A stretch of DNA of 59,785 nt, taken from contig JAPOYX010000265.1 in assembly GCA_026706345.1 (NCBI GenBank), positions 1 through 59,785 on the forward strand. Direction: 5' to 3'. The translations under genes were made by a program, and so were the position numbers. The notes under the pieces are model-generated. The model ran no database searches. It had not been told where the DNA came from and saw nothing but the letters and a program-made list of their open reading frames with translations. This DNA is from Gemmatimonadota bacterium (lineage in GTDB: Bacteria > JAAXHH01). Positions 21,055 through 41,616 of the stretch are shown in pieces (positions within the stretch are counted from its first letter, which is position 1; each line of letters begins with the position of its first letter).

Positions 21055-22614
21055 TTACGCCACGAAGGGATTGCGCCCGAATCCGGGACGGCGCCCATAG
21101 GTCCATGCCACCCGGCTCATGTCCTCGTTTGACATCCGCCAGTCCATGAGTCTCACGCGAAGGTCCTGGACTGTCCCGGCATAGCGTGGATCACCGGCTA
21201 CGTTCCGAAGCTCTCCGGGATCCGCTTCCAGGTCGAACAGCACGTCCGGCATGCCGTTGAAATGCCAGTACTTGAACCGGTCGTCCCGTACCATCCAGCC
21301 CCGGCACCTCTCCGGCGGGATGCCGAGTTTCTTCGGCGTCCAGTAGAATCGGAAATCCCAGTCGGCGTAGACTTCCGTGCGCCAGTCGCCCGGCCGTTCC
21401 CCCCGCAGGAGAGGAACGAGGGACCGGCCCTGCAGGAACGCCGACGTGTCCGGTCCGCCTGGTCCGCCTGGCCCGCCCGGTTCGCACAGTCCGCACACGT
21501 CCATACAGGTGGGAAGGACGTCGAGGGATTCGACGAAATCGTCCATCGCCATGCCGCGCGTTCCATCCGCGCAGGACCGGGGATCGCGGACGATGAAGGG
21601 CACGTTGTACGCCTCGTCGTAGAAGAGTTCCTTTTCGAACATCCAGTGGTCGCCCACATATTCCCCGTGGTCGGACGTAAAGATGATCAGCGTATTCTCC
21701 CAGAGCCCGCGGTCCTTCATGAAGCGGAACAGCCTTCCCAGGTGGTCGTCGATCTCCGTGATCAACCCGTAGTACGTGGCCCTCCGCCGGCGCCAGACCG
21801 CCTCGTCGTCATACGCCACGCCCCCGCGTTCTATGCGGAAGGGGACATGGAAGGGATGGGGCCGCGCCAGTTCTTCCGGGGACCGGTTCGGTGCGGGGGA
21901 ATCGGCGGGATCGTATAGTTCGTTGTACGGATAGGGCGCCACGATGGGCAAATGGGGCTTGAAATAGGAGAGGTGGAGGAACCAGGGCGACCCGGGAGAT
22001 CCGGGCGATCCGCCGGCGTCCTTCATGAAGGCCATGGCGCGGTCCGTCATGAACGCGGTATCGCTGTCCTCCCGCCTGAACCGCGTGGGGTAGGCGGAGT
22101 GATCGCCGTCGGCGCCGGCGGGCATTTCCACGGCGAACGGGTCGCGCAGGACTTCATCGGGATATCCCCTGGCTGCGAGATGCGCAAGCCACCCCTCCCC
22201 CCTGCTTTCATTCAGTTCCCAGGATTCCAGGCCGGCCAGGGCCGCGCGCCGGAACCCCTGTTCAGGCTGCGCCTCCGGTTCGCCAAGGGGATCGGGGGTG
22301 TAGTGCGTCTTGCCGCACAGGGCCGCCCGGTAACCCCCGTCCGCGAAGTAATGCCCCATCGTCTTCTCGTCCGCGGGCAGGGGGACCTCGTTCCAGGGCG
22401 ACCGGTTGGCGTGGGGGTATCGCCCCGTGTAGAAGCACATGCGGCTCGGACCGCAGACTGCCGACTGTACGTAGGCCCGCCGGAACAGGACGCCGTCGCC
22501 GGCAAGTTCATCCAGGTGGGGCGTCCTGACCACGGGATGGCCGGCGCAGGACATGCAGTCCGCCCGCATCTGGTCGGTCATGATGAAGAGTACGTTCAGT
22601 CGATTGCCGGGCAT
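21055..22614 (-). CDS. Formylglycine-dependent sulfatase (type I)
   Basis: Hydrolyses a sulfate ester; Cys54 in CGPSR (C-x-P-S-R) is the residue converted to formylglycine. Other metal and sulfate ligands fit: LFIMTDQMRADC with the N-terminal Asp pair, GKTHYTPD, and TSDHGEYVGDHWMFEKELFYDE. The protein is 519 residues from ATG 22614 (GGAG 8 nt upstream); the 89-residue extension in the frame is not protein-like. There is no clear signal peptide, so it may act in the cytoplasm or use another route. Two Gly/Pro/Ser repeats (GGPGGPGGP and GSPGSPGSP) interrupt it. No sulfatase-maturing enzyme is in the window. Substrate unknown. Confidence 0.92.
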   Translation of the reverse strand: MPGNRLNVLFIMTDQMRADCMSCAGHPVVRTPHLDELAGDGVLFRRAYVQSAVCGPSRMCFYTGRYPHANRSPWNEVPLPADEKTMGHYFADGGYRAALCGKTHYTPDPLGEPEAQPEQGFRRAALAGLESWELNESRGEGWLAHLAARGYPDEVLRDPFAVEMPAGADGDHSAYPTRFRREDSDTAFMTDRAMAFMKDAGGSPGSPGSPWFLHLSYFKPHLPIVAPYPYNELYDPADSPAPNRSPEELARPHPFHVPFRIERGGVAYDDEAVWRRRRATYYGLITEIDDHLGRLFRFMKDRGLWENTLIIFTSDHGEYVGDHWMFEKELFYDEAYNVPFIVRDPRSCADGTRGMAMDDFVESLDVLPTCMDVCGLCEPGGPGGPGGPDTSAFLQGRSLVPLLRGERPGDWRTEVYADWDFRFYWTPKKLGIPPERCRGWMVRDDRFKYWHFNGMPDVLFDLEADPGELRNVAGDPRYAGTVQDLRVRLMDWRMSNEDMSRVAWTYGRRPGFGRNPFVA

Positions 22615-35807: not shown

Positions 35808-35848
35808 GGGGTCTTTCCATGTCCTTCTACAACCCCGTCAGTACTTGT

Positions 35849-38800
35849 TCACTGCAGATCCTTCAGTACGGCGTACCGTCTCGCTTCTTCCCGGGAGTCG
35901 GCCAGGACCAGATAGGCGGGCATTTCCTTGGCACCGTGGGCGGGCACCTCGAACTTCGTCTTGAGTCTGAAGTGTCCTCCGCCGATGCCCCAACTGTCCA
36001 TTCTGGCTACTTTCAAGGGCGATACGAGCACGAGAGTCCGTCCGGTTCGCGGATTGGCGGCAGCGGTCCAGTGACCGCCATGGTGACGGAAGTGCCAGTC
36101 GATCCGTTTTCGTTCGTAGTCCGCTGAGAACAGGACGGTGTCGTGCATCTCGCCATCGGGCTGCAAAAAGAGATTCCACCCACCGTTCAGTTGGCGAGGC
36201 GTGCCCCCTCCATTCACGAGTCTCCATACCAGCTTGATCACCGGGCTGGCGCCCAGGGTCAGCGTATCGAGTTCCAGAGTCAGTCCGCGGGTCTCTTCGA
36301 GGGATAGCACCGCCCGCTGGCGAACGCCAGTCCATTCGATGCCGCGCGCATCTTTGCAGAAAACCGTCTCCGCCGTAAAGGTCTCACCTTCCAAGGGTGC
36401 TGTCCAGGAAAGTCGGCCCATCTCTACTCTCGGCTGCAGACCGCCGTACCAGGGGTAACTTGCTCCGAAAACCCTTGGGTTCGGAAAGGCCGATGCCAGG
36501 TGGTTACATTCGTCCCCCGCGTCTCGGATTGCGCTCACAGAGCCCAGGAAAGAAGGGACCACGTCGATTTCGAGCCGCCGATTACGAATGGTGAATATCC
36601 TGTGGCGCGCGGATTCGCCTTCTTCCACCTCCACGGCGGACCCGTCTCCCAAACGGATGAGCGGTACATCGGCCTCGACGTTGCGCTCCCCGCCTTCGAG
36701 TACCATCCGGCCGTTGTACACACCCGGTGGTTGGGACGTGGCCAGTCGCACCGACCCGGTGAAAGGGGTTTTCCAGTCGATTTCCGAGAATGAAATCCAC
36801 ATGGGATCGCAGCGCCAGCCGTCGGGCATGGCAAAGGTGACGGTTCCGCTGGCCTTCCGGGTCTTCCATTGCGCTACGCGGAACCGGATTTCTGTCTCTT
36901 CCCCGATGACCACGGCCGTCGGTGGATCGGTCGACACCTCGAATTCGCCCAGGACCGGTGGGAGCGGGTCGAACTGGTTGACCTGGTGCCCATTCGTGCG
37001 CCGCCACACCCGGCGCACGCCCTGCCAACCGCCGTCGCCAACGAAGAGACGAAGCAGACCAATGGATATCCGCGACTGTGGCGCGCAGGTCGTCTCCCGG
37101 CTCACAGACTGGAATTCGTACCCGTTCCATTCGATTTCGTCCAAGTCGCCAGGCCAGAGGACCCCGATCGTTCCATGCGACATTTCAAAAGCACCCCACG
37201 TCTCAGCGAATGAATCACCACGCTTGAAGGCGTAGTCGTCCGGCGCAGGACGGTCGGCGCATTGCGCTCTCAGAACCCCGTCCCCGAGCGGCAGCGTCAG
37301 CGTCGTAAACTCCGAGCCCCCATTCGTCACGAACTGGTAGAGGCGAAAGGTACGGGGGTCGAACCCGGTGTTTTCCACTACATGTTCCACCGAAATGACC
37401 GGTCCGGCGTTCAACCGGATGATCCGGCTGAAGACCAGGCCGGGGGTCTTTTTCGGTGCATAGGTTGCCGAGAGGACCACGCCGTGCCCGTCCCGTTCGG
37501 CTTTCAGCTTGAAGTCCGACTCGCTGTATTCGCTCGGCCACTTCGGCGGTATGGGGCGCGCGCCTTCGGTGCCCAGATACCTTCCGGTGGTCCGGTCCCT
37601 GATCTTCAACTGGCCGCCCCCGGCCTCCAGAGTCGCCCTGAAGATTTCGTTCTCGAACCGTACCGCGCCGTCCTGATGGAACAGCAGTCCGCCCGGCTCC
37701 AGCGCGAAGACGGCGTGTTTCGCATCCGCCAAGTCGACCGTTCCGCCCTTCCATTCCACGCGGCCCGAAAAGGTCACTTCGAAGACGCCCGGACCGTCCG
37801 CCGCGAGGACCGTTTCGAATCCTCCGTATCCCCGGGCGGGCACCGCGTTGGTTTGCGCGCTCTCGTCCACCGAGAGGCCGTCTGAAACGGTGAGGCGAAC
37901 CCGCGCTTCGACATCATCGGGCAACTGGCTGCGCAGGATTACGCGCACGGGCTGCGAGTTGCCGGGCGCCAGCGTGATCTCCTCCGGATCAATGGAAACA
38001 ACCATCTCGACCCGGGGGCGAATGCCGGTGGCGAGCTCGATGGGAAGATCGTCCCAGCGAATGTCGGAGCGGACCCTCGGCGCGGTCTTATCCCTGTCCA
38101 CGGCCTCGGCCTTCGCCGATACGCTTACCGGCGCCTCGAGGGTAATCGTCTCACCGGGTCCTAACGTTGCTCGATGATGGAAGTCGACGGACAGGTCGCC
38201 CGACTCCTTCGCAGTCAACGAGAGGACGACCGGCGTGTCCCTCCGGTTCTGCAGTTTCCACCGCAGGACCGTCTTCCCTCCCCGCACGGGTTCGATGTCG
38301 TCCACCGTAGCAGCCGCGTATAACTCTGCCGTCTCCACCGCCGTCACGTGCCGGGCCTCGCGGTCCACCCGGACCGTCAATTCCTCCCGGGCTTCGGCAG
38401 ACGCGGCCTCATCGGACGGCGCATATCGTTCGGCAGGCGCCGAGAATCGGTAGGTGAAAACCCGCAGCCCTTCCCACTCTTCCTCGTCGGGCACCTGCTC
38501 GACCGACCTCTGCAGGGACTCGTACCAGTCGTGCCGGTCGAAGAAGTACCGTGTACACGGCATCGAAAGGATCGCGGGCATGTAGTTGCGCATCACCGGA
38601 TAGGGTCCGGCGTCCCAGAAGAAGCCCGTCCGCTTGTAGGGCGCCATCGCCTTCACGTTCCCCGACCAGGTGTCGAGGTCGACGTGGGCCTTCTTGTCCT
38701 CGATGGTCTTCTCCACCGAGCGGACGAGCATCCGCCGGCCGATACTCCTGCCCTGGAAACGTGGAGAGACGTTCAGCAGCGCGAGGTACAGGGCCTCGCC

Positions 38801-39034
38801 GTCGTCCTTGTCGTATACCAGGGAACAGTACCCGCCGATCTTTTCCCCTTCATCCCACACGAAGACCGCGATGTATTCTTCCCGCTCGTGCCAGTCCCGG
38901 ATGTCCCGCGCGTTCGTGGGCACGCCGCCGTTCCACGTGCCGGGCCATTCGAGGTCACTTTCGTTCCACATTTCGGCGAGCGCGTCGGCATCCCGTACGG
39001 GGTCGATCAGCCTTAGATTGGCTTCTTTCGCCAT
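35849..39034 (-). CDS. GNAT acetyltransferase fused to a very large multi-domain beta-sandwich protein
   Basis: The first 155 residues of 1061 are a GNAT domain with the acetyl-CoA loop RFQGRSIGRRM. The rest is beta-rich without known catalytic motifs: about 180-330 a sandwich with YAAATVDDIEPVRGG, about 340-440 an Ig/NEW3-like domain (SIDPEEITLAPGNSQPVRV), then two large domains that look related to mutarotase-like super-sandwiches, one opening with FENEIFRATLEAGGGQLKI (about 470) and a second with IRNRRLEIDVVPSFLG (about 810), plus a NEW3-like strand set between them. There is no signal peptide. The gene ends the DUF4202-sulfatase-GNAT operon (12 nt after the sulfatase). Glycan recognition or modification is inferred from the sandwich domains only. 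Confidence 0.72.
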   Translation of the reverse strand: MAKEANLRLIDPVRDADALAEMWNESDLEWPGTWNGGVPTNARDIRDWHEREEYIAVFVWDEGEKIGGYCSLVYDKDDGEALYLALLNVSPRFQGRSIGRRMLVRSVEKTIEDKKAHVDLDTWSGNVKAMAPYKRTGFFWDAGPYPVMRNYMPAILSMPCTRYFFDRHDWYESLQRSVEQVPDEEEWEGLRVFTYRFSAPAERYAPSDEAASAEAREELTVRVDREARHVTAVETAELYAAATVDDIEPVRGGKTVLRWKLQNRRDTPVVLSLTAKESGDLSVDFHHRATLGPGETITLEAPVSVSAKAEAVDRDKTAPRVRSDIRWDDLPIELATGIRPRVEMVVSIDPEEITLAPGNSQPVRVILRSQLPDDVEARVRLTVSDGLSVDESAQTNAVPARGYGGFETVLAADGPGVFEVTFSGRVEWKGGTVDLADAKHAVFALEPGGLLFHQDGAVRFENEIFRATLEAGGGQLKIRDRTTGRYLGTEGARPIPPKWPSEYSESDFKLKAERDGHGVVLSATYAPKKTPGLVFSRIIRLNAGPVISVEHVVENTGFDPRTFRLYQFVTNGGSEFTTLTLPLGDGVLRAQCADRPAPDDYAFKRGDSFAETWGAFEMSHGTIGVLWPGDLDEIEWNGYEFQSVSRETTCAPQSRISIGLLRLFVGDGGWQGVRRVWRRTNGHQVNQFDPLPPVLGEFEVSTDPPTAVVIGEETEIRFRVAQWKTRKASGTVTFAMPDGWRCDPMWISFSEIDWKTPFTGSVRLATSQPPGVYNGRMVLEGGERNVEADVPLIRLGDGSAVEVEEGESARHRIFTIRNRRLEIDVVPSFLGSVSAIRDAGDECNHLASAFPNPRVFGASYPWYGGLQPRVEMGRLSWTAPLEGETFTAETVFCKDARGIEWTGVRQRAVLSLEETRGLTLELDTLTLGASPVIKLVWRLVNGGGTPRQLNGGWNLFLQPDGEMHDTVLFSADYERKRIDWHFRHHGGHWTAAANPRTGRTLVLVSPLKVARMDSWGIGGGHFRLKTKFEVPAHGAKEMPAYLVLADSREEARRYAVLKDLQ

Positions 39035-39046
39035 CTTGTCTCCTCT

Positions 39047-40429
39047 TTATCTCAAGTGGTTCCCGCCATGGTCAGGCTCCCCGCGTCGACCGGGCGGGAG
39101 TACCGCATTATCATGAGGAATCGCCCCTGCTTCGTTCACCTCGTAGCCGAACCGTTCCAGGTAGTGGTCGGCGGGAAGCAACGCATCGCCGCGAAGCGCC
39201 ATCTCCTGCTCCAGCCGGCCGTCCAGCCGGCGCTGCAGCGATGTGTGTTCCGTGCGTCCCACGAGGTTCCGCATCTGAAACGGATCCTTCCTGTTGTCGA
39301 ACAGCAACCAGGGGCCGTCGAGGTTGCGAACGTATGTATGGCCGCGGGTCCTGATTCCCCGCCACGGCTGGCCCCGGTATTCCGAAAAAGGCGCGATGCT
39401 CATGATATAGGCGGCTTCGTTGCCCCTGAAGGCTTCGCCCCGGACGGCCGGCGCATGGTCGCGGCCTTCGCAGGTGCCGGGGACGGGGACTCGGGCCAGG
39501 CCGAGTAGCGTCGGCATGATGTCCACCACGTTGAAAGGCGTTTCGATGCGAAGTCCCGCATACGCCTGTCCGGGGCAACGCATGACGAAGGGGACGCGAA
39601 CGGACTCGTCCCACGGGTGCTGCTTGCGCTGCCGGCCGTGCGATCCGAGCATGTCGCCGTGGTCCGATGTATAGACGAAAACCGTGTTTTCCGTCAATCC
39701 CCGTTCATCGAGCGCACGGCCTATCCGCGCCAGCTGATCGTCGAGGGCCGTGATATGGGCATAGTAGCCCAAAAGGTCGGTGCGACTGGGTTCGGGGCAG
39801 TTGGGGCGAGCTTCGATCTCCTCCGGCGGATACCGGTCGAGATAGCGACCGGGCACGGCATCGTAGGGATTATGCGGCGGTCCCCACGAAAGCACCAGGG
39901 CGAAGGTACGGTCCCCTTTCCTGGTCCGTATGTAATCGATGGCCAGGGAAGTCTGTGCCTCCGCGTCGTAACCCGTCCAGTAGAGCGGATCCTCCGAATC
40001 CCGGTAATACACAGAGTGCATGTAATCGTGCGTGCAGTTGCCCACCGCCCAGAATTCGAATCCCCGCCTCCGCGGCCCGGGCGGGGTATATCCGCCCCGG
40101 GACGGGCCGTCGAGATGCCATTTCCCGATGTAGGCCGTGTCATAGCCTGCCCCACGCAGGACGGTTCCCAGAGTCGGCCGGTCCGCCGGCAACCTGACGT
40201 CGTTCATGAACATGCCGGTCGTCAACGGGTACTGGCCGGTCAGAAAGGCTGCCCGCCAGGGCGTGCAGACCGGGATGTTGGCGACCGCCAGGTCGAATAC
40301 GACGCCTTCGCCGGCCATGCGGTCCATGTAAGGCGTTTGTACCTGGCGGCTCCCGCCGAATCCGGTACTGCACCATCGATGCTGATCGCCAAAAACGAAT
40401 ACGATATTCGCGGCGCGATGCCCGGACAT
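39047..40429 (-). CDS. Formylglycine-dependent sulfatase with CTPWR active-site motif
   Basis: Type I sulfatase, 460 residues. The modified Cys55 lies in CTPWR, which keeps the C-x-P-x-R core but has Trp where Ser is usual. Metal and sulfate contacts: FVFGDQHRWC (Asp near the N-terminus), GKWHLDGPS, YTSDHGDMLGSHGRQRKQ and WDESVRVPFV. No signal peptide is apparent, so cytoplasmic action is likely. It lies between DUF4202 (36 nt) and the GNAT fusion (12 nt), suggesting that the three act on one substrate. The other sulfatase in this window (21055-22614) is divergent in sequence and has CGPSR. Confidence 0.92.
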   Translation of the reverse strand: MSGHRAANIVFVFGDQHRWCSTGFGGSRQVQTPYMDRMAGEGVVFDLAVANIPVCTPWRAAFLTGQYPLTTGMFMNDVRLPADRPTLGTVLRGAGYDTAYIGKWHLDGPSRGGYTPPGPRRRGFEFWAVGNCTHDYMHSVYYRDSEDPLYWTGYDAEAQTSLAIDYIRTRKGDRTFALVLSWGPPHNPYDAVPGRYLDRYPPEEIEARPNCPEPSRTDLLGYYAHITALDDQLARIGRALDERGLTENTVFVYTSDHGDMLGSHGRQRKQHPWDESVRVPFVMRCPGQAYAGLRIETPFNVVDIMPTLLGLARVPVPGTCEGRDHAPAVRGEAFRGNEAAYIMSIAPFSEYRGQPWRGIRTRGHTYVRNLDGPWLLFDNRKDPFQMRNLVGRTEHTSLQRRLDGRLEQEMALRGDALLPADHYLERFGYEVNEAGAIPHDNAVLPPGRRGEPDHGGNHLR

Positions 40430-40465
40430 GGATTTCGATCTCCGTATTACTCGCCCCGGACCCGG

Positions 40466-41101
40466 TTACGTGCTCCGGTCCGCCCGGTCCGCCTGGTCCG
40501 CCCGGTCCGCCCGGCCCGCCCGGATCGCGCGGTCCAGCAACGATTTCAACGCTGGAGCAAAGTCGATGTCCCGGGCCGCGGCCTGGCCCGAGGCCGACAT
40601 CTTCTTCCAGGTCTTCGCCAGGATTTCGACCAGTTTCTCCTCGCTGTGCTTCTCCGCGAACGCGGGCAGGTAATACCGGAGAAACACCAGGCAGGCTACG
40701 TCCTCGAGGGTCTGCGCTTCGGGATCGGCCTTGAATCGCTCTTTTCTGACGAGGGACTGCACACGCTCCACGAGCGTATCGTCATAGCCGACGTCCCGCA
40801 GGATCGAGCCCGCGGTCTGGGCATGGTACCAGGCCAGTTCCGTCCGCCACTGCCGGTAGCCGAGCCGGCCGACGGGGAAATCGCCGCGGGGTATCTTCCA
40901 CCGTTGAATATGCTGGCAACGCACGGCAAGGCGCAATGCTTCCGACGCACCGGGCGCCAGGTCTTCCAGGCAGGCGGACATCCGACGGCCGTACAGAAGC
41001 GCCTTCGGAATCGGCCGGCCGTCGACTTCTTCGGATTCCGGGTCGGCGCCGTTCGCGGTGTCGATGCGTTCTATCGCGTCCGAGAATCGATCATGATCCA
41101 T
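40466..41101 (-). CDS. DUF4202 protein
   Basis: The 211-residue product matches DUF4202 along its length: RFSDAIERIDTANGADP, KALLYGRRMSACLEDLAP, RCQHIQRWKIPR (His/Arg core), YHAQTAGSILRDVGYDD, LEDVACLVFLRYYLPAF, KHSEEKLVEILAKTWKKMS. Function of the family is unknown; the His-containing helical pattern recalls HD-type folds but I do not assign it. A 20-residue tail of RAD units encoded by the GC-rich 9 bp repeat extends it beyond the family core. ATG 41101 lacks a clear ribosome binding site and sits just after a strong terminator, so how it is transcribed is unclear. First gene of the sulfatase operon. Confidence 0.8.
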   Translation of the reverse strand: MDHDRFSDAIERIDTANGADPESEEVDGRPIPKALLYGRRMSACLEDLAPGASEALRLAVRCQHIQRWKIPRGDFPVGRLGYRQWRTELAWYHAQTAGSILRDVGYDDTLVERVQSLVRKERFKADPEAQTLEDVACLVFLRYYLPAFAEKHSEEKLVEILAKTWKKMSASGQAAARDIDFAPALKSLLDRAIRAGRADRADQADRADRST

Positions 41102-41121
41102 CAATCTTTTCGCTTTCAATT

Positions 41122-41156
41122 AAAAAGCCGCCGGATGTTGACTCCGGCGGCTTTTT
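41122..41156. terminator. Strong intrinsic terminator after the sigma-like regulator gene
   Basis: GCCGCCGG (41127-41134) and CCGGCGGC (41144-41151) pair perfectly around a 9 nt loop, flanked by A5 and T5, so it can work on both strands. On the minus strand it ends transcription of 41188-41616, isolating it from the DUF4202 operon. Confidence 0.88.
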
Positions 41157-41187: not shown

Positions 41188-41616
41188 TCAGGCGGAAATG
41201 GCGAGCCGGTCACGGTACTCCTGCTTCCCGAAGGTCGGTTTGACGGGACGAAAATCGATACCATGCCGGGTGCACAGTTTGCGCAACTTGTTGACCGCGC
41301 CCCCGATATGCTTGCCATCCCGGCAGATCCCGAACAGATGCTGACTCACGACCCTGCGCGAGATACCGAGGATCTCCGCGACCTCCTGCTGGGTTTTCTG
41401 ATAGATGAAATACAGCACCACAACCTCGCACTGTTTCTGGGTCAGATACTGGGAAAGGAAATCGTAGACCGCGTCGGCCAGTTCGTCCACCCGATCCTCG
41501 CGCTGGTACCGATGCACCCGGTCCTCCCCCGTTTCGTACCAGATATTCGCTTCGTTGGGAAACTTTTCCAAATCAACCTGATCCAATCGTATTTCCCAGA
41601 ATTCAGGATTATACAT
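41188..41616 (-). CDS. Small sigma-70 region 4-like DNA-binding protein
   Basis: The 142-residue product has a helix-turn-helix of the sigma region 4 type (about 56-95: LTQKQCEVVVLYFIYQKTQQEVAEILGISRRVVSQHL in two helices with the EVAEILGISRRVVSQHL recognition core). Upstream residues 1-45 are acidic and aromatic and show no sigma region 2, so it is not a complete sigma factor; it may be a phage-like or ECF-remnant regulator. The C-terminal region is basic (NKLRKLCTRHGIDFRPVKP). It is flanked by strong terminators on both sides (41122-41156 and 41656-41684). ATG 41616 lies 12 nt after GGAGG, a long spacing. Confidence 0.75.
   Translation of the reverse strand: MYNPEFWEIRLDQVDLEKFPNEANIWYETGEDRVHRYQREDRVDELADAVYDFLSQYLTQKQCEVVVLYFIYQKTQQEVAEILGISRRVVSQHLFGICRDGKHIGGAVNKLRKLCTRHGIDFRPVKPTFGKQEYRDRLAISA

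Follow-up and report, generated by a model that had tools for sequence, protein, structure and literature searches.

The stretch analysed here, referred to as the window, comprises 59,785 nucleotides of a Gemmatimonadota genome (GenBank assembly GCA_026706345.1, contig JAPOYX010000265.1). Three genes lie head to tail on its minus strand. The first encodes a DUF4202 protein (40466–41101) that matches PF13875 with 238.8 bits against a cut-off of 35.1 (E 4.8e-71); it is read from an ATG, and a TTG at 41119 is also possible as a start. An S1-type sulfatase gene (39047–40429; 460 residues, PF00884 with E 9.7e-54 plus SGSH_C) follows after 36 nt and, after a further 12 nt, an open reading frame (35849–39034) for a 1061-residue protein headed by a GNAT domain, which we call the giant. 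The initial annotation had placed three adjacent genes here with the same gaps and identities, and the open reading frames and profile matches agree with it on each point, including the lack of signal peptides: none is obvious by eye at any of the three N-termini. It had also raised the concern that the trio might be an assembly artefact. The three genes evolve under purifying selection (dN/dS 0.10–0.25 in all of them alike) and recur in the same order in independent assemblies, which marks them as real genes and rules out assembly error as the source of the arrangement.

Upstream of the trio, also on the minus strand, lies a gene for a 142-residue protein resembling region 4 of sigma-70 factors (41188–41616; PF04545, E 2e-9). 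It is set apart from the DUF4202 gene by a perfect 14-bp hairpin with a U-tract (41122–41156, minus strand), which could be an intrinsic terminator or a leader attenuator and which is also found between these two genes in six relatives and in the sister genus G013. The hairpin is kept across the genus. In the window genome it ends about 20 nt ahead of the DUF4202 ATG; a promoter would hardly fit into this interval, so that attenuation or read-through is possible. The element may either set the trio apart from the sigma-like gene or serve as an attenuator in the leader. No score above shuffled background was obtained in a promoter scan, and Rfam and tRNA scans of the whole window were empty. 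The three genes are probably co-transcribed.

Within the genus, every locus long enough to show gene order carries the same succession: recO, a pfkB-like gene, the sigma-like gene, DUF4202, sulfatase, giant, map (convergent), an HMGL-like gene, M20, acyl-CoA dehydrogenase and a gyrB-like gene. Because synteny spans this whole 15-kb block from recO to the gyrB-like gene, flanking genes included, the adjacency of the trio within the genus says little. The neighbourhood is conserved at this level only, and its parts lie apart in G012, G013 and G049. In G013, the sigma-like gene, the DUF4202 gene and a sulfatase gene (71% identical) stay together and are followed by a hydantoinase-like gene; the gene for the giant relative is found on a different contig, adjacent to one for a SpoU methyltransferase. 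In the second sister genus, G012, the sigma-like and DUF4202 genes are on contig C55 and a full-length giant is on C80, again beside SpoU. The giant homologues of G049 and G061 have neither DUF4202 nor a sulfatase alongside. The search of related genomes for the triplet, a check proposed by the initial annotation, therefore recovered it in every sufficiently long locus of the genus and found no linkage of all three genes outside.

A survey of 384 genomes points the same way. DUF4202 is present in 37 of them and, outside the window's family, almost always without a giant; recognisable giants occur in 20, of which 14 belong to the window's family and six do not. Only G049 has both outside that family, on different contigs. 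DUF4202 and the giant hence occur largely independently of each other. In the window's taxonomic family, DUF4202 is most constantly accompanied by the sigma-like gene, adjacent to it in three genera, and no constant neighbour emerged when a conserved DUF4202 neighbourhood was looked for in other phyla. A limited literature search found no described system that joins DUF4202, a sulfatase and a GNAT, in keeping with the initial annotation, and no paper naming DUF4202, PF13875 or a GNAT–mutarotase fusion.

We conclude, with a probability of about 0.6, that the trio is a genus-level neighbourhood of unrelated families and not a dedicated system, and that the giant represents a self-contained family of GNAT acyltransferases that act in the cytosol, next to an ordinary sulfatase and an HD-derived DUF4202 protein. 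A weak functional link within the trio is possible, given that DUF4202 and the sulfatase are adjacent in a second genus and that order and orientation are kept within the genus wherever the locus is complete. The initial annotation went further and proposed a joint action on a glycan. Spelled out, the trio would be a small catabolic or modification operon that handles a sulfated, aminated glycan fragment after its import, with desulfation by the sulfatase, sugar binding and N-acetylation of the amine by the giant, and removal of a phosphate by the DUF4202 protein. The short gaps, common strand and order kept in the genus are what such an operon would look like, and the DUF4202–sulfatase adjacency in G013, the sugar-enzyme-like fold of the giant and the sulfatase-rich genome fit it as well. 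However, linkage of the giant is not seen outside the genus, all flanks are conserved along with the trio inside the genus, the families occur independently of each other, and no transporter or glycoside hydrolase lies beside the trio, the flanks being unrelated genes. We therefore regard a glycan operon as unlikely.

Judged from its sequence, the sulfatase belongs to the ordinary formylglycine-dependent enzymes of the S1 type and is probably cytoplasmic. The CTPWR motif noted in the initial annotation is found at residues 55–59, starting with Cys55. The genome gives 33 matches to sulfatase models, some of which are fragments of one gene, corresponding to about 30 sulfatases, and it encodes one FGE-type maturation enzyme; another of the sulfatase-model matches is inside the window, at 21490–22596. 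Close relatives of the window genome, all assembled from metagenomes, were deposited under the names Candidatus Latescibacterota or Gemmatimonadetes; a sponge origin is a guess based on isolate names. For PAUC34f and Poribacteria, which are common in sponges, relative enrichment in sulfatases has been reported (PMC7081726).

The DUF4202 protein probably derives from the HD phosphohydrolase superfamily. This assignment draws on a distant member at locus L141 (242–799), which carries a GHDIE motif, and on a match of one alignment member, taken to be the same protein, to the HD model PF01966 (E 4e-5). A profile search of the PDB with DUF4202 returned no significant relative. At the C-terminal end of the window's protein is a short, GC-rich repeat (ADRADQADRAD; 40466–40530) that is absent from the aligned relatives.

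The GNAT domain of the giant occupies residues 1–150 (38585–39034, minus strand), and PF00583 matches residues 21–138 with 39.8 bits against a cut-off of 20.7 (E 6e-10), in agreement with the N-terminal GNAT of the initial annotation. It is followed by a linker at residues 150–184 (38483–38587, minus strand), which is helical in the structure model and near-invariant at Asn150, Pro153, the DWY motif (169–171), Arg176 and Asp183. Across 28 homologues from several phyla, the GNAT domain and the DWY linker show the strongest conservation in the protein; near-invariant residues of the GNAT domain include Trp23, Gly99, Asn126, Tyr133 and the GFFW140 stretch. Motif A (Q/R-x-x-G-x-G/A) reads QGRSIG, with Gly99 near-invariant and the first glycine replaced by Ser97. 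That position is a lysine in G049 and G070, and a glycine in some homologues. The replacement of the first glycine in the pyrophosphate-binding loop makes GNAT activity less than certain. The giant could accordingly be a degenerate GNAT that persists in a binding or structural role, the beta domains being its working part, and the large beta part is indeed kept in most lineages. Against this stand the near-invariance of Tyr133, Asn126 and Gly99, the status of the GNAT domain as the most conserved part and the giant relative of G013, in which the GNAT domain is retained and the beta part lost. Loss of acyltransferase function is thus improbable, and a working GNAT domain remains part of our preferred reading.

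Beyond the GNAT domain, residues 160–1061 have no Pfam match above cut-off, and no NCBIfam assignment either. All 28 aligned homologues share one co-linear architecture, in which the GNAT domain is followed by two Ig-like domains, supersandwich 1, a further Ig-like domain and supersandwich 2. In a model of residues 150–1061 (pLDDT 79.7, pTM 0.49), the helical linker leads into a pair of Ig-like domains; after these come a many-stranded domain with a helix at its end, a third Ig-like domain and the last sandwich, which likewise ends in a helix. On the minus strand, the first two Ig-like domains (about residues 185–310 and 318–445; 37700–38482) are defined by predicted strands and match FixG_C and HYDIN/ASH-type Ig models weakly, with scores below cut-off. 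Supersandwich 1 (residues 445–692; 36959–37702) is delimited by strand order in the model and by conservation, and ends in a helix rich in tryptophan and arginine; Glu502, Glu611, Trp613, Trp627 and Arg674 are near-invariant in the 28 homologues. The third Ig-like domain (about residues 698–795; 36650–36943) is seen in the model and has weak matches to other proteins. Supersandwich 2 (residues 797–1061; 35852–36646) contains a conserved PWxGG motif (Pro861–Gly865).

Modelled alone with AlphaFold, supersandwich 2 reached a pLDDT of 91.3 and a pTM of 0.91. Foldseek matched this model to BDI_1685 and, with E-values of 1e-8 to 1e-6, to GalM, the periplasmic domain of YidC and the GH36 and GH38 sandwiches; the match to GalM has an E-value of 3.5e-8, a probability of 1.00 and a TMq of 0.62. 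The initial annotation had described two mutarotase-like sandwiches and suggested a fold search of the C-terminal part. That search bore out the second sandwich, through both the structure model and the matches to galactose mutarotase and glycoside hydrolase folds; the first is plausible from its predicted strand order only, and the beta part as a whole received no assignment, as the Foldseek hits in PDB and viral libraries were mostly long chains of Ig domains with TM-scores of 0.1–0.2. Profile searches of the PDB with both sandwiches gave no significant relative, and an hhalign comparison of supersandwich 1 with supersandwich 2 (probability 6.7%) does not support homology between them. The catalytic residues of GalM are His/His/Glu. 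In supersandwich 2, none of the His, Glu or Asp positions is conserved over the 28 homologues, so the domain lacks the catalytic residues expected of an aldose 1-epimerase. For the glycan substrate proposed in the initial annotation, the fold is the sole indication.

Full-length homologues of the giant are 49% identical in G012 and about 25% identical in G049 and G061, and others occur in G308, G158, G257, G070 and G342. The relatives of both sister genera adjoin a SpoU-type rRNA methyltransferase gene (L026 and L027). The G013 protein (L027:131–1450) is 439 residues long and consists of the GNAT domain and linker only; it lacks the beta domains, and its N-terminal extension differs from that of the giant. 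The giant of L020, otherwise the closest relative, shows only about 75% DNA identity to the window in the beta part (35824–38324), with flanks mostly at 86–97%; dS is 0.71 there, compared with 0.17–0.33 in neighbouring genes, which suggests recombination with an unsampled lineage.

The bacterial family of G070, probably Paenibacillaceae, has the giant in 48 of 121 sampled genomes; its genomes are mostly 5–8 Mb in size. An Amidohydro_2 gene (PF04909, E 9e-27) lies directly downstream of the giant in all 25 loci inspected in this family (L143–L167; also L096:7105–7980), and it is 51–100% identical across the 25 loci while the flanks change. The pairing of the giant and Amidohydro_2 genes is genuinely conserved and points to function far better than the trio does. 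The giant might then work with the amidohydrolase in a two-enzyme pathway, as its acyltransferase, its beta part serving as a scaffold for oligomerisation or substrate channelling and the hydrolase having been lost or replaced in other lineages. This reading is compatible with our preferred explanation and narrows it, and the invariable pairing argues for it; yet the window genome, G049, G308, G158 and G257 contain no Amidohydro_2 orthologue, only distant paralogues in some, and we consider it possible but doubtful.

By homology, the N-terminal GNAT domain would acylate an amine, with acyl-CoA as the donor. The Ig-like and mutarotase-like domains may hold and orient a bulky, possibly carbohydrate-containing substrate, and the protein would act in the cytosol, with the beta arms positioning the amine. 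We tentatively propose that the giant represents a new class of acyltransferase, in which a GNAT domain is mounted on two sugar-enzyme-like supersandwiches to modify a large, carbohydrate-containing amine in the cytosol, with an Amidohydro_2 partner in one family. The giant family extends over several phyla and is undescribed, and about 900 of the 1061 residues are covered by no domain model; the family's coupling to Amidohydro_2 in one bacterial family makes the function testable outside uncultured bacteria. It is this multi-phylum GNAT variant that deserves to be retained from the initial annotation, a dedicated three-gene system being improbable.

Each part of the locus can be compared to known proteins. 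The sulfatase shares CxPxR and aligned active-site segments with the S1 sulfatases 6j66 (chondroitin/dermatan 4-O-endosulfatase) and 2qzu (YidJ), at E-values of about 1e-53, but has a shorter N-terminus and no obvious export signal. Unlike HD superfamily proteins, DUF4202 proteins of the window's clade read HI in place of the HD metal motif, and the HD match is confined to a distant member. The C-terminal domain of the giant has the supersandwich fold of GalM (3mwx, 4bze) at only 9% identity, with no conserved His, Glu or Asp. The accessory sandwiches of GH36 (N-terminal) and GH38 (C-terminal) are similar in fold, whereas the giant has no catalytic barrel. Finally, the giant resembles members of the GNAT superfamily (PF00583; nearest named models RimI, PaiA and WecD) in its acceptor-side Tyr and Asn and in the second glycine of motif A. 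It scores far under every named NCBIfam cut-off, and differs from known GNATs in carrying about 900 additional residues of Ig-like and mutarotase-like domains.
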